From IMG/VR virus record IMGVR_UViG_3300038470_000079, positions 1 through 59,854 of that record: a stretch of DNA of 59,854 nucleotides. One strand, 5' to 3'. Below, piece by piece: positions 9,142 through 58,613 of this stretch (positions within the stretch are counted from its first letter, which is position 1; every line of letters begins with the position of its first letter). The DNA is from a virus. Position numbers and translations under genes: made by a program. Under the pieces are notes generated by a model. The model was not told where the DNA came from, ran no database searches, and worked only from the letters and a program-made list of their open reading frames with translations.

Positions 9142-9171
9142 TTGACCTGAAACTGCAGCAAATGCTACAGT
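9142..9171 (+). promoter_or_regulatory. Promoter with overlapping operator for the HNH gene
   Basis: TTGACC (9142-9147) and TACAGT (9166-9171) are 18 bases apart. The palindrome AGCA-AA-TGCT (9157-9166) runs into the -10 box. The same arrangement occurs at two promoters near 57.56 and 57.73 kb. Predicted transcription starts at about 9178, on the ATG itself, so the mRNA would be leaderless. No ribosome site is visible. Confidence 0.65.
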
Positions 9172-9177
9172 AGACCG

Positions 9178-9664: not shown

Positions 9665-10264
9665 ATGAAAAACTGGTCTGACAAACCCTGCGTAATCCTA
9701 GCCTCCGGTCCAGGCTTAACGGATGCCCAGTGCTACCGCGCTCGTGTTGCGGCGGCAGCCACCCACAGTATCGTAGTGAACGACACGTGGAGGAGGTTTC
9801 CCGATGCGGAGGTGATGTACGCGGGTGACTTCATGTACTACAAGGTCCACCATAAGAAGGTGAAAGTCCACTTTCACGGGCAGCTGTGGACGCAAGATGC
9901 CGCCGCTGCGGCCCGCTACGGTATCAACCGCGTGAAGGGCGCCAACCGACCGGGTCTGGGCCCTGAAGGCATGATCCACACGGGCGGCAACTCGGGGTAC
10001 CAGGCCATCAACCTCGCGTACCTGTGGGGCGCGAAGAAGATCATCCTGCTCGGCTTCACGATGCGCGAGATCGATGGCAAGAAGCATTGGCACGAAGACC
10101 ACCCCAAGCCGCTGGTCGCACAGATCCTGCCGGACGAGTGGCGGCACAAGATGAAGTTCCTTGCCGATGACCTGAAGGTCAAGGGCGTGGACGTGGTGAA
10201 CTGCGATCCGCTGAGCGCGCTGACGTGCTTCCGGATGTCGACGATCGAACAGGAACTGCCGTGA
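9665..10264 (+). CDS. Glycan-cassette protein of the MptE/'norphogenetic' type
   Basis: This 199-residue protein opens with CVILASGPGLTDAQ, a Rossmann-like glycine loop, then HSIVVNDTWRRFPDAEVMYAGD and TGGNSGYQAINLAYLWGAKKIILLGFTM. That pattern is shared by phage proteins named norphogenetic and by DUF115/MptE-like and GT29/42-like enzymes that bind nucleotide-activated substrates. It probably takes part in sugar transfer. The exact reaction is not evident. ATG 9665 follows the HNH stop by one base. It ends in a GTGA overlap with a second HNH gene. Confidence 0.75.
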   Translation: MKNWSDKPCVILASGPGLTDAQCYRARVAAAATHSIVVNDTWRRFPDAEVMYAGDFMYYKVHHKKVKVHFHGQLWTQDAAAAARYGINRVKGANRPGLGPEGMIHTGGNSGYQAINLAYLWGAKKIILLGFTMREIDGKKHWHEDHPKPLVAQILPDEWRHKMKFLADDLKVKGVDVVNCDPLSALTCFRMSTIEQELP

Positions 10265-41125: not shown

Positions 41126-41428
41126 TTACTGGATAACCCGCGGTGCAGCGATGGTCGCGAGTTCGTATTCGCGCTGCCAGTCGATCACGTGTTTGCGGAT
41201 CGCGGCGACCACACTAGGCCAGTTGACGCGCTCCGCGTCATCGCTGCGCCCCTCGCTCAGGCAGTTGTCCAGCAGGTGCGCAGCGGCCTTTTTGGCCAGC
41301 AGCATCGCGTCAACCCTGGGGTGCGGGTGTCTCCAGGCGGTCTGTTTGGTGGCGCCAGACGGGAATACGACACAAACGCCCCCGGCTGAGGGGTCATTAT
41401 TTGTCGCTTCGAGCCTGTAAATTCGCAC
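41126..41428 (-). CDS. Unknown protein between late and accessory blocks
   Basis: The 100-residue protein is read from GTG 41428 with AAGG eight bases upstream. It has a short strand region (RIYRLEATNNDP...VCVVFPSG) and then helices (RVDAMLLAKKAAAHLLDNCL, VNWPSVVAAIRKHVIDWQRE). A hairpin (41119-41141) covers its stop codon. It is transcribed away from an A+T-rich, dyad-containing region. Confidence 0.6.
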   Translation of the reverse strand: MRIYRLEATNNDPSAGGVCVVFPSGATKQTAWRHPHPRVDAMLLAKKAAAHLLDNCLSEGRSDDAERVNWPSVVAAIRKHVIDWQREYELATIAAPRVIQ

Positions 41429-41462
41429 TTTGTGACCTTAAAGGTTATCTAAGCAAGATTTA

Positions 41463-41496
41463 TGCTATTTTTAGCACAGTTCAATAGTTTTGAACT
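41463..41496. promoter_or_regulatory. A+T-rich region with two dyads, divergent control site
   Basis: TGCTA-TTTT-TAGCA (41463-41476) and AGTTCAA-TAGTT-TTGAACT (41478-41496) are perfect inverted repeats lying next to each other. A third nested dyad, ATAGTT-TTG-AACTAT, is offset by a few bases. They lie between the leftward 41126 gene and the rightward accessory block. An operator for a phage regulator is the simplest reading. The 41429-41665 gap holds no other gene I can support. Confidence 0.55.
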
Positions 41497-41665
41497 ATGG
41501 TTTGGGTGGTCGACTGATAATTTGCACGATAGCCTATCAAAGTATTGAATCACCGTCAAGCCGCAGTGCGATTACCTACACCCGGTGATGTTAGGGTTTG
41601 CGGGTTACGGCTCTTGGCACGCTACTCGCAATGTAGTTGGCATGCCTACCAATCACACCTAACCG

Positions 41666-45252: not shown

Positions 45253-45456
45253 ATGATCCCGCCCCCGTTCGAGCCCTTCCACGTGTGCGTGCACCGTAGC
45301 CAGTACTGGCAGGCTTGGTACGCGCTCAAGGCCACGTCACGCGCGGACGCGATGCAAGAGGGGGCCGTGATCGCCCAGCAGCACCGCCCGCACCGCGTGA
45401 CCCTGCACGCGGACCCCGAATCCCAACCCATTCACACCTGGAACCTGACGCGATGA
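45253..45456 (+). CDS. Small accessory protein C, intact copy
   Basis: The 67-residue protein (FEPFHVCVHRSQYWQAWYAL, ADAMQEGAVIAQQHRPHRV) has the strand-helix-strand form of small phage proteins with repeated Trp/Tyr. It is the intact parent of the broken fragment at 44255. It overlaps the next gene by 4 bases. Confidence 0.55.
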   Translation: MIPPPFEPFHVCVHRSQYWQAWYALKATSRADAMQEGAVIAQQHRPHRVTLHADPESQPIHTWNLTR

Positions 45457-56837: not shown

Positions 56838-57293
56838 TCAGTCGATCAGGATCAGCGCACTCGGCGGGTATGCCAGGCCGTCATCGAGCAGGATGCCGTT
56901 GCCCGGCATGTAGATCGCGGCCACGGTCTTGAAGGCGTTGACCTGGGATGCGTGGCTGTTGGTCCACTCACCACCCCAGCCGGGATCAGCCGGCGGGTCG
57001 CCACTGATCGGGTCCACCGGATCCACGACTTGCACCCGCAAGCCCGGCAAGAAAACCCGCTCGTTGAACCCACTGTCGGTATCCATGAACGCGGCTTTGG
57101 CACCGGCCGGCAACGGCGGACCATCGACACCGAAGGCCTTGCTGAACTCGTCGGTGACGACGGTGGCCACCAACCGAGCATCACGCACCGTGTTTTCGAG
57201 GTTTTCGGGATCGATCGACCCCATGAACGCCTCGCGCCAGATCTCGCGACGTTCCTTGGCGAGCTCGCGTTGCAGCTTCTTGTTCCCGTTCAT
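56838..57293 (-). CDS. Unknown protein after the Cro-like gene
   Basis: The 151-residue product starts at ATG 57293 behind AGAAAGGATCCAA (4-base overlap with the regulator). It has a basic helix (NKKLQRELAKERREIWREAF) and then a mixed domain (TVRDARLVATVVTDEFSKAF, GLRVQVVDPVDPISGDPPAD) ending in ALILID. I recognise no family. Confidence 0.6.
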   Translation of the reverse strand: MNGNKKLQRELAKERREIWREAFMGSIDPENLENTVRDARLVATVVTDEFSKAFGVDGPPLPAGAKAAFMDTDSGFNERVFLPGLRVQVVDPVDPISGDPPADPGWGGEWTNSHASQVNAFKTVAAIYMPGNGILLDDGLAYPPSALILID

Positions 57294-57544
57294 TTGGATC
57301 CTTTCTGCTGCTTCTCGCAGCGCTTGGCGTATTCGCAGTTGGCGCACGCCGTGGCCAACGTGCTCTGAGGGATGATCAGTTTCATGCGCAGCGCCGCCTT
57401 GCGGATGCGCAGCGCCGCGTCGGCACTCGGTGTCCGCCACCCCGATGCATACTGGCGCATCGTGCCGCGGGGGATACGGGCGAGGTCGGCGAGCTTGTCG
57501 CGTTGCTCGGTGTCCAGGTCCTGCAGGAGGGTCTTGGTCATCAT
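57290..57544 (-). CDS. Cro-like HTH repressor with Cys-rich tail
   Basis: ATG 57544 (or 57541) gives 84 residues. The HTH is in QRDKLADLARIPRGTMRQYA...TPSADAALRIRKAALRM. The C-terminus CANCEYAKRC has three cysteines that may bind metal. Its own promoter is overlapped by the AGCA-N2-TGCT operator, so autoregulation is likely. The same operator lies over the early rightward promoter and at 9157, making this the likely switch protein. Confidence 0.8.
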   Translation of the reverse strand: MMTKTLLQDLDTEQRDKLADLARIPRGTMRQYASGWRTPSADAALRIRKAALRMKLIIPQSTLATACANCEYAKRCEKQQKGSK

Positions 57545-57551
57545 GGGTCCC

Positions 57552-57580
57552 AATGTAGCATTTGCTGCAACGTCAAACAA
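57552..57580 (-). promoter_or_regulatory. Promoter of the Cro-like gene with operator
   Basis: On the minus strand TTGTTT and TACATT are 17 bases apart. The dyad AGCA-TT-TGCT (57557-57566 on the plus strand) overlaps the -10. The mRNA leader is under 10 bases. Binding of the Cro-like protein here would block its own transcription and, because the plus-strand -35 shares these bases, the small RNA promoter as well. Confidence 0.65.
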
Positions 57581-57590
57581 GGGCTAAAAT
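57562..57590 (+). promoter_or_regulatory. Promoter of the C4-like small RNA
   Basis: TTGCTG (57562-57567), a 17-base spacer and TAAAAT (57585-57590) face right. The -35 box lies within the operator of the divergent Cro-like gene. Transcription should begin near 57597. Confidence 0.65.
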
Positions 57591-57596
57591 CATGCC

Positions 57597-57688
57597 TGCC
57601 GGTTCTTCGGAGCGCCGGCAAGTCGGGCTAGTCCCAACCTACGCCCGATGTTCAAACCCTTACGCCCACTTCGGTGGGCGTTCTTTTT
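57597..57688 (+). ncRNA. C4/P4-CI-like antisense regulatory RNA
   Basis: A transcript of about 92 nt from the promoter above would fold into GCCGG/CCGGC (57598-57602, 57615-57619), TCGGGC/GCCCGA (57623-57628, 57643-57648) and the terminator hairpin. The core AGTCGGGCTAGTCCC...ACGCCCGATG is one I recall from the C4 antisense RNA family (P1/P7 c4, phage P4 CI RNA), which blocks expression of lytic genes through pairing and premature termination. The early rightward genes lie just downstream, as in those phages. A cmsearch would settle the family. Confidence 0.62.
57663..57688 (+). terminator. Rho-independent terminator of the small RNA
   Basis: CGCCCAC and GTGGGCG pair around a TTCG loop and are followed by TTCTTTTT. 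It is the strongest terminator in the window. It separates the small RNA from the early rightward operon, or could be the controlled stop through which the operon must read. Confidence 0.88.
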
Positions 57689-57708
57689 GCACGCTGTTGC
57701 AAAAAGGC

Positions 57709-57736
57709 TTGCAACGCTTGCAGCAACTGCTACACT
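57709..57736 (+). promoter_or_regulatory. Early rightward promoter with operator
   Basis: TTGCAA (57709-57714) and TACACT (57731-57736) are 16 bases apart, with the operator core AGCA-AC-TGCT at 57722-57731. A further TTGCAA copy lies at 57696. This would start transcription of the early block that continues through the circle joint. A fourth operator core (AGCATTTGCT) lies at 57822-57831 inside the first gene. Confidence 0.65.
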
Positions 57737-57778
57737 CGGCGCTCGTTTTCCGTGAAACCGGACCCAGAGGTGGGGATC

Positions 57779-57991
57779 GTGGTAGTACGCCTGCGCTTGT
57801 GGTGGCTGCGCCTTTGTCTGAAGCATTTGCTGCAACGCCTCAATCACCTTGCGAACGAACGTGACCACGCACTGTTCTGCTACGACATGGAGGTCGTCGA
57901 TGAAGTAGAAGCCAAAATCCGCCGCATCAGTCGTCGCTGTGCGCGCTTCGGCGCCGCCATCACCTACATCAACCAACGAAGGAAATCATGA
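57779..57991 (+). CDS. Small basic protein, first gene of the early block
   Basis: The frame gives 70 residues from GTG 57779, which has an AGAGGTGGGG stretch before it. GTG 57752 is also in frame but has no ribosome site. A Leu/Arg/Trp-rich start (VVVRLRLWWLRLCLKHLLQR) is followed by helices (EVVDEVEAKIRRISRRCARF). It could be a leader peptide or a small DNA-binding protein. It overlaps the next gene by 4 bases. Confidence 0.5.
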   Translation: MVVRLRLWWLRLCLKHLLQRLNHLANERDHALFCYDMEVVDEVEAKIRRISRRCARFGAAITYINQRRKS

Positions 57992-58464
57992 CCGTCCAAG
58001 TGACCATGACCTTTGCCACCGCGGCGGAAGCAGCCAGCGCGCTCGCACGCATGACCGGTGGCACCAAGGACGCACCGAACCCTCAGGCAAAGCCTGCGGC
58101 GACGGAAGCCGCTGCCGCTTCTTCGCCGCCTGCCGCGTCGGCAGCTGCATCCGAGACGAAGGCGCCGGCATCGACGAAGCCGCCCGCCGCTTCGCCGAAG
58201 CCCGAACCCGACAAGCCCAAGGCCCCGCCGCCCCCGCCCCTGCCGGCTGAACCCGAGGTCAAGTACGCGACCTCCGGTCTGCCCGAACTGATCAAGGAAG
58301 CCCAGGTCGCCGGCCGGATCGCCGACGTGAAGGCCTACCTGGCCGAGGTCGGCGTGGAGAAGGGCCCGCAGCTCGACACGAAGGGCGCCGACGCCATCGC
58401 CAAGGTGAAGGCCAAGGTGGAAGCCCTGGTCGCCGAGATCAAGGCCGCGGAAAGCGTGGCGTGA
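57988..58464 (+). CDS. Protein with disordered Pro/Ala linker, unknown
   Basis: This 158-residue protein (ATG 57988) has a short N-terminal strand-helix unit (TVQVTMTFATAAEAASALAR) and a long Ala/Pro/Lys linker. A C-terminal helical domain follows (GLPELIKEAQVAGRIADVKA, DAIAKVKAKVEALVAEIKAA). Its place before DUF2800 and the ssDNA-binding gene suggests a recombination role. No motif is recognised. Confidence 0.65.
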   Translation: MTVQVTMTFATAAEAASALARMTGGTKDAPNPQAKPAATEAAAASSPPAASAAASETKAPASTKPPAASPKPEPDKPKAPPPPPLPAEPEVKYATSGLPELIKEAQVAGRIADVKAYLAEVGVEKGPQLDTKGADAIAKVKAKVEALVAEIKAAESVA

Positions 58465-58613
58465 CCCTGACCGCGCTGGCGCAGGCGCTGCAAGAGGCCG
58501 GTCTGCGGTCTCCAGTGTCGCGCTGGCGCGATCTCCAACACTCACCGTGGGTGGCCTTGCGATACCAGATCGTGCACCACCCGCGCTACGACTTCAGAAC
58601 CGTACTCAAATGA
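58461..58613 (+). CDS. Tiny protein before the DUF2800 gene
   Basis: A 50-residue frame from GTG 58461 (GTGA overlap) reads ALAQALQEAGLRSPVSRWRD...PWVALRYQIVHHPRY and ends in an ATGA overlap. It is basic and helical at the start. Both overlaps support translation. Function unknown. Confidence 0.6.
   Translation: MTLTALAQALQEAGLRSPVSRWRDLQHSPWVALRYQIVHHPRYDFRTVLK

Follow-up and report, generated by a model that had tools for sequence, protein, structure and literature searches.

A divergent switch with paired operators

The window, as we call the whole 59,854-nt stretch of DNA analysed here, comprises positions 1-59,854 of IMG/VR record IMGVR_UViG_3300038470_000079, an uncultivated phage. Its replication and virion genes (DNA polymerase, helicase, primase, terminase, portal-like adaptor and internal virion protein) mark it as a podovirus-like genome. 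The locus described here is a divergent switch (Table 1), with a leftward regulator gene on one side and rightward early genes on the other; an exonuclease-like protein (DUF2800) is encoded downstream. The sequence points to promoters, an operator pair and a terminator in a conserved arrangement; more tentatively, it suggests that the regulator acts as a repressor and that leaderless translation takes place.

Table 1. Features of the switch region and of a distant operator-bearing promoter in the window
Feature	Position	Strand	Basis or remark
Switch regulator gene, 84 aa, Cro/CI/YdaS-type HTH	57293..57544	-	12-locus alignment, profile, structure model
P_reg, TTGTTT-17-TACATT	57552..57580	-	read from sequence; relatives likewise
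Operator O1, GTAGCATTTGCTGC	57555..57568	.	15.4 bits, best in window; overlaps P_reg -10 and P_sRNA -35
P_sRNA, TTGCTG-17-TAAAAT	57562..57590	+	read from sequence; equivalents in 8 relatives
Predicted small RNA, ~92 nt	57597..57688	+	fold z; terminated RNA at equivalent position in 7 relatives
Hairpin 1, UUCG tetraloop	57597..57620	+	fold
Hairpin 2, 7-nt loop UCCCAAC	57622..57649	+	fold
Intrinsic terminator	57662..57688	+	stem 57662-57681, T-run to 57688; compared with shuffles
Early promoter P_E, TTGCAA-16-TACACT	57709..57736	+	read from sequence; placed alike in all relatives
Operator O2, GCAGCAACTGCTAC, inside P_E	57720..57733	.	14.6 bits, third best in window
First early gene, 70 aa, GTG start, Shine-Dalgarno AGAGGTGG	57779..57991	+	ORF; candidate RNA target
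Possible further operator, O3, within early gene 1	57820..57833	.	15 bases, GCATTTGCTGCAACG, in common with O1
Putative regulon member, TTGACC-18-TACAGT, operator 9155-9168	9142..9177	+	tied best operator score, 15.4 bits

A leftward Cro-type gene at a divergent switch had already been recognised in the sequence-only reading, and the gene is indeed of the Cro/CI HTH type. Its product ends in a cysteine tail, CxxC(E/D)(F/Y)A(K/R), and residues G34, R36, C66 and C69 are invariant in the regulators of the 12-locus alignment. No Pfam or NCBIfam model matches the window protein above cut-off. Compared with the PDB as a profile, the family matches YdaS/Cro chains at E 0.009-0.013; the structure model is a helical HTH (pLDDT 77), for which the best Foldseek matches are YdaS, HigA and P2 C, none of them below E 0.067. 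The fold resembles those of Cro/YdaS, HigA and P2 C, and weakly so by sequence. A close kinship with the regulator of a known isolate was considered and discarded, the only such match being a weak one to P2 C.

The operator is a 14-bp palindrome, GTAGCA-NN-TGCTAC, and was scored with a matrix built from the 11 other loci, the window being left out. The three best among the 59,854 window positions are O1 (57555, 15.4 bits), a site at 9155 (15.4 bits) and O2 (57720, 14.6 bits). Of 200 random sequences from a first-order Markov model, 4.5% had a top site reaching 15.4 bits and none (0/200) had a third-best one reaching 14.6 bits. With the same leave-window-out model O3 scores only 9.3 bits and is weak. 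Since the operator at 9155 sits in a promoter directly followed by the ATG (9178) of an HNH endonuclease gene (phrog_99, E 2.5e-55), the regulator probably governs a small regulon. In the window, the P_reg -10 element ends about 7 nt before the regulator ATG; in most of the relatives read, its distance from the start is 6-7 nt. Because of this spacing, and the same geometry at the HNH promoter, both messages are predicted to be leaderless. The switch regulator probably also controls the homing-type endonuclease via such a message. A gene at 9665-10264 of the window matches phrog_4603, annotated as alpha-2,3-sialyltransferase (E 3e-40). On the early side of the switch, an A-tract (57701-57705) lies directly upstream of the P_E -35 element, as one does in several terminator-bearing loci; it is possibly an UP element, and it is also complementary to the T-run of the terminator.

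A predicted self-terminated RNA and its counterparts in related phages

The promoter, the stretch of about 92 nt with two hairpins and the terminator that the earlier reading had placed between the divergent genes are all present in the sequence. The 95 nt at 57596-57690 fold at -41.7 kcal/mol, compared with -28.3 +/- 3.4 kcal/mol for 200 dinucleotide shuffles, none of which (0/200) is as stable (z -3.9); a second computation, done alongside the relatives, gave z -3.75. In this fold, hairpins 1 and 2 are separated by a single unpaired A. A terminator of any kind appears in 4% of shuffles of the window intergenic region. P_sRNA is weak on its own, with 8 of 12 consensus bases, and it is missing from the output of a standard promoter scan because of its weak -35 element; its backing comes from the same placement relative to the operator in 9 of the 12 loci. 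As for a protein encoded over the RNA, the alternative that the earlier reading had named, the two frames concerned (57562-57864 on the plus strand, 57590-57976 on the minus strand) find no convincing homologue among the relatives (best E 0.5), where the regulator does have homologues. At the sequence level, the locus thus displays the features of an intrinsically terminated phage small RNA: a promoter, a structured body, a terminator, no coding frame and a conserved position. The strongest composition-corrected plus-strand fold of the window lies elsewhere, in an AT-rich intergenic stretch (41401-41510) that contains no tRNA and has no Rfam match beyond chance.

The DUF2800 protein and the regulator led us to 11 other uncultivated phage loci (L002, L003, L004, L005, L016, L020, L033 (=L034), L035, L036, L037 and L038). 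All 11 have the small leftward HTH gene with its cysteine tail, and related early genes follow in 10; L016, found through the regulator alone, has different ones. The two best palindrome matches occupy fixed places in 12 of 12 loci, O1 by the regulator start over its -10 element and O2 inside P_E. A recognisable promoter overlaps O1 in the window, L002, L003, L020, L033, L035, L036, L037 and L038. Between O1 and O2 a rightward terminator occurs in 8 of the 12 loci, against 0.19 expected from shuffles, and a leftward one in none of the 12; L004, L005 and L016 are without the RNA. Taken together, a transcript from a regulator-controlled promoter is quite likely real, and given the promoter in 8 related phages and the terminated RNA in 7, 57597-57688 is probably a real regulatory RNA. 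Isolated phages are distant: in DUF2800, BPP-1-like podoviruses have 35% identity and Casjensviridae 30%. Three isolates examined (Casjensviridae, BcepC6B-like) lack such an operator or RNA; their regulator is comparably placed and their intergenic regions are short.

The window RNA has no sequence similarity to those of the other loci, and in L035 and L036 nearly identical promoters, operators and terminators surround almost completely different bodies. In five relatives (L002, L003, L020, L037 and L038) the RNA includes a hairpin whose loop is rich in pyrimidines and resembles an anti-Shine-Dalgarno sequence, the pyrimidine stretch being CCCTTCCTTCCTTCC in L002, TCTCCTCCCTCC in L003 and L020, TTTTCTCCCTCCTCCCTC in L037 and two runs of 12 in L038. 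Against composition shuffles, the run stands out in L002 (p 0.023), L020 (0.014) and L037 (0.002), and more weakly in L003 (0.077) and L038 (0.097); the window RNA, with 6 nt only (p 0.74), has no such run. Between L003 and L020 the pyrimidine segment TTGGTCTCCTCCCTCC is identical and an inner stem pair changes from C-G to G-C; part of this segment, GTCTCCTC, is common to L038. On this comparison the segment looks like an anti-Shine-Dalgarno recognition loop, in principle as in the alpha-r14 RNAs.

These patterns bear on the chief rival to a base-pairing RNA, namely that the slot serves insulation only: the terminator would keep rightward (antisense) transcription out of the early operon, P_sRNA would be a weak side effect of the operator, and the body would be functionless. 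The nearly invariant flanks around almost wholly different bodies in L035 and L036 fit insulation, as do the weakness of P_sRNA and the lack of a standout target (see below). It is harder to reconcile with bodies that are structured beyond shuffles in 8 of 9 loci (z -2.0 to -5.8, terminator included and partly responsible for these scores; L033 has z -1.3), with the pyrimidine loop that L003 and L020 have in common and L038 has in part, or with a promoter ahead of the terminator in 9 of 12 loci, needless for a terminator alone. On balance, we regard insulation alone as somewhat unlikely.

The early regions contain further features of their own. A small frame at 58461-58613 of the window (VTLTALAQALQEAGLRSP...) has, by eye, similar counterparts at the equivalent place in L003, L020 and L038 and is perhaps a conserved small protein before DUF2800. 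Stretches of about 80-125 nt after the early genes of L004 (3000-3125), L033 (2850-2955), L037 (3680-3800) and L036 (2080-2178) form long stems around inner hairpins, reaching -73 kcal/mol for 126 nt in L004. Rfam gave nothing beyond chance at E<=5 for those of L004 and L037 and nothing at the gathering cut-off for those of L033 and L036; they are possibly a second structured RNA family of the relatives' early operons. Between early genes of L003, a tRNA gene (2680-2753) seems to lie within a long closing stem, GGTGGGCTCTGCGCG / CGCGCAGAGCCCACC, recognised by eye at 2583-2905. Extremely repetitive short-unit DNA is found in the early regions of L037 (2920-3155) and L033 (3390-3715), with frames that are, by eye, Tyr/Gly/Asp/Ser-rich and Val/Gly/Ser-rich.

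Candidate functions and the search for a target

The earlier reading had assigned the RNA core to the C4 antisense family of P1/P7 c4 and P4 CI. No Rfam family, C4 (RF01695) included, matches anywhere in the window at its gathering cut-off, and the C4 model has no match even at E<=10 in 57450-57900. The latter interval is likewise without a match at E<=10 to isrK (RF01394) or c4-a1b1 (RF03163); the five matches it does give at that threshold are chance ones, all far below their cut-offs. This negative result is informative because the same Rfam library finds both C4 (74.9 bits, cut-off 45) and isrK (60.8 bits) in phage P4, our positive control. In the C4 consensus a long stem closes off two hairpins, which makes three stems in total, whereas the window RNA has tandem hairpins, a terminator and no closing stem. 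As had also been noted, the window contains no visible integrase: Pfam models for tyrosine and serine integrases, which match in control genomes, find neither. This absence, checked in one genome of the set (the window), does not prove a lytic life style since the record may be incomplete. A same-strand small RNA upstream of early genes, one of whose loops has faint complementarity to the Shine-Dalgarno of an early gene, does recall C4, but without the covariance match, the closing stem and the integrase a true C4/P4-CI immunity RNA is extremely improbable. The C4 label for this RNA was plausible but wrong and is corrected here. The 15-mer core AGTCGGGCTAGTCCC was also considered as a signature of the C4 family and rejected, as none of its 10 exact matches in IMG/VR has a comparable setting or structure.

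For each RNA, we calculated interaction energies that take accessibility into account with two genes, the first early one and the conserved phrog_18562. In the window, the loop of hairpin 2 could pair with the gene-1 Shine-Dalgarno at -13.5 kcal/mol for the hybrid and -4.1 kcal/mol net, and gene 1 ranks 43rd among 113 start regions. Over nine loci, the pairing of each RNA with its own first early gene has ranks 3, 7, 2, 6, 5, 9, 1, 3 and 2 of 9, indistinguishable from chance. Two candidates were set aside: an antisense match to the first early gene, with 9 of 10 pairs around AGAGGTGGGGATC by eye, is not significant against controls, and the best partner elsewhere in the window, at 45431 on the minus strand (-12.1 kcal/mol), is equalled by 19% of loop shuffles. 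With no integrase and a gene-1 pairing no better than controls, the proposed immunity role finds no support. What survives of the proposed RNA-based switch is the structured, self-terminated RNA at a divergent switch; neither C4 membership nor an immunity role is supported.

The earlier reading further envisaged premature termination of lytic transcripts, as in P4. Such termination in a shared leader is not required here, because a separate promoter, itself with an operator, serves the early genes past the terminator. A related possibility is that P_sRNA is a second early promoter whose transcript stops at 57688 and sometimes reads through into the early operon via alternative folding. The heptamer TACGCCC occurs at both 57640 and 57661 and would let the 3' arm of hairpin 2 compete for the terminator; the direction is that of the early genes, and a terminated leader of this general kind exists in P4 and Gifsy-1 (isrK; PMC12197685). 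We nevertheless consider an attenuated leader improbable, as an early promoter with its own operator follows the terminator in all loci and as the minimum-free-energy and centroid folds both keep the terminator.

The best explanation, to which we assign a probability of roughly 0.5, is that 57597-57688 encodes a noncoding, base-pairing regulatory phage small RNA under the switch regulator. Because P_sRNA overlaps O1, a single circuit would link the RNA to the P_reg message and to the early operon with P_E and O2. With little regulator present as infection begins, P_reg, P_sRNA and P_E would all fire; as the regulator accumulates, all three would be shut. The RNA would then base pair with other messages through its exposed parts, the loop UCCCAAC and the linker UUCAAACCCUUA; among the exposed loops of the predicted fold, that of hairpin 2 is the likeliest to pair. 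Such pairing would most likely block ribosome binding, to judge by the pyrimidine-rich loops of the corresponding RNAs in relatives.

A more specific idea, which we find distinctly doubtful, is that the operator/promoter and the terminator are fixed and flank an exchangeable RNA cassette, which would act as an RNA specificity or exclusion module of integrase-less phages. It draws on bodies that diverge almost completely even in close relatives (L035 and L036), several of the RNAs carrying anti-Shine-Dalgarno loops. The regulator message and, in the window, the HNH message are predicted to be leaderless and would escape silencing by such an RNA.

Relation to known RNAs and regulators

The known small RNAs of the early switch come mostly from temperate phages, such as P1, P4 and Gifsy-1. 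A small RNA at this point is of a kind already known; what is new here is that it has no detectable homology to the known ones. Its slot recurs across a set of uncultivated phages, where it goes together with a regulator whose 14-bp operator is defined. If transcribed, these RNAs would be a second, unrelated solution for RNA regulation at this point of the phage circuit, and the loci would offer a concrete set for comparing how RNA targets change.

The put RNA binds the beta-prime zinc domain of RNA polymerase and causes read-through of terminators. In HK022, putL consists of two stem-loops within about 70 nt just downstream of P_L (PMC9378689). According to its predicted fold, the window RNA likewise has two stem-loops directly after a phage promoter, one nucleotide apart and spanning 53 nt from the start site, and could in principle bind the polymerase so that terminators are ignored. 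However, unlike putL, it runs into a strong terminator only 12 nt later, the early genes have a second promoter and are independent of this transcript, and the relatives mostly have one large-loop hairpin instead of two; a put-like antiterminator is very improbable. An inverted pair in the HK022 record, taken as putL/putR, was dismissed since it looks, by eye, like operator sequence.

The C4 RNAs (P1/P7 c4, P4 CI) are phage RNAs of about 80-90 nt whose loops pair at ribosome binding sites (PMC5320573). In this family, the a' and b' loops are complementary to the target at its ribosome binding site and upstream of it. The window RNA shares with them its strand and its place upstream of early genes (early or antirepressor genes for C4), but it has its own terminator and its own operator-overlapping promoter, and no antirepressor gene was seen. 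With a promoter directly upstream, RNase P processing, which makes the C4 5' end from a longer transcript, would be unnecessary. As in isrK (RF01394) of the P4 leader and Gifsy-1, a phage promoter is closely followed by two neighbouring hairpins, then a linker and an intrinsic terminator; unlike isrK, the window RNA has no covariance match, no C4 downstream and a separate early promoter past the terminator.

Outside phages, the alpha-r14 or cuckoo RNAs (NfeR1; CCUCCUCCC loops) combine pyrimidine-rich anti-Shine-Dalgarno loops with divergent stems (PMC10746234). The hairpins of L002, L003, L020, L037 and L038 show the same combination, although they are phage-borne and have one hairpin rather than three, and the window RNA is without such a loop. 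The regulator, finally, is like YdaS/Cro, P2 C and HigA in being a small HTH protein with a divergent promoter, palindromic operators and expected autoregulation; it differs from them in belonging to a cysteine-tailed family and in having a message predicted to be leaderless.
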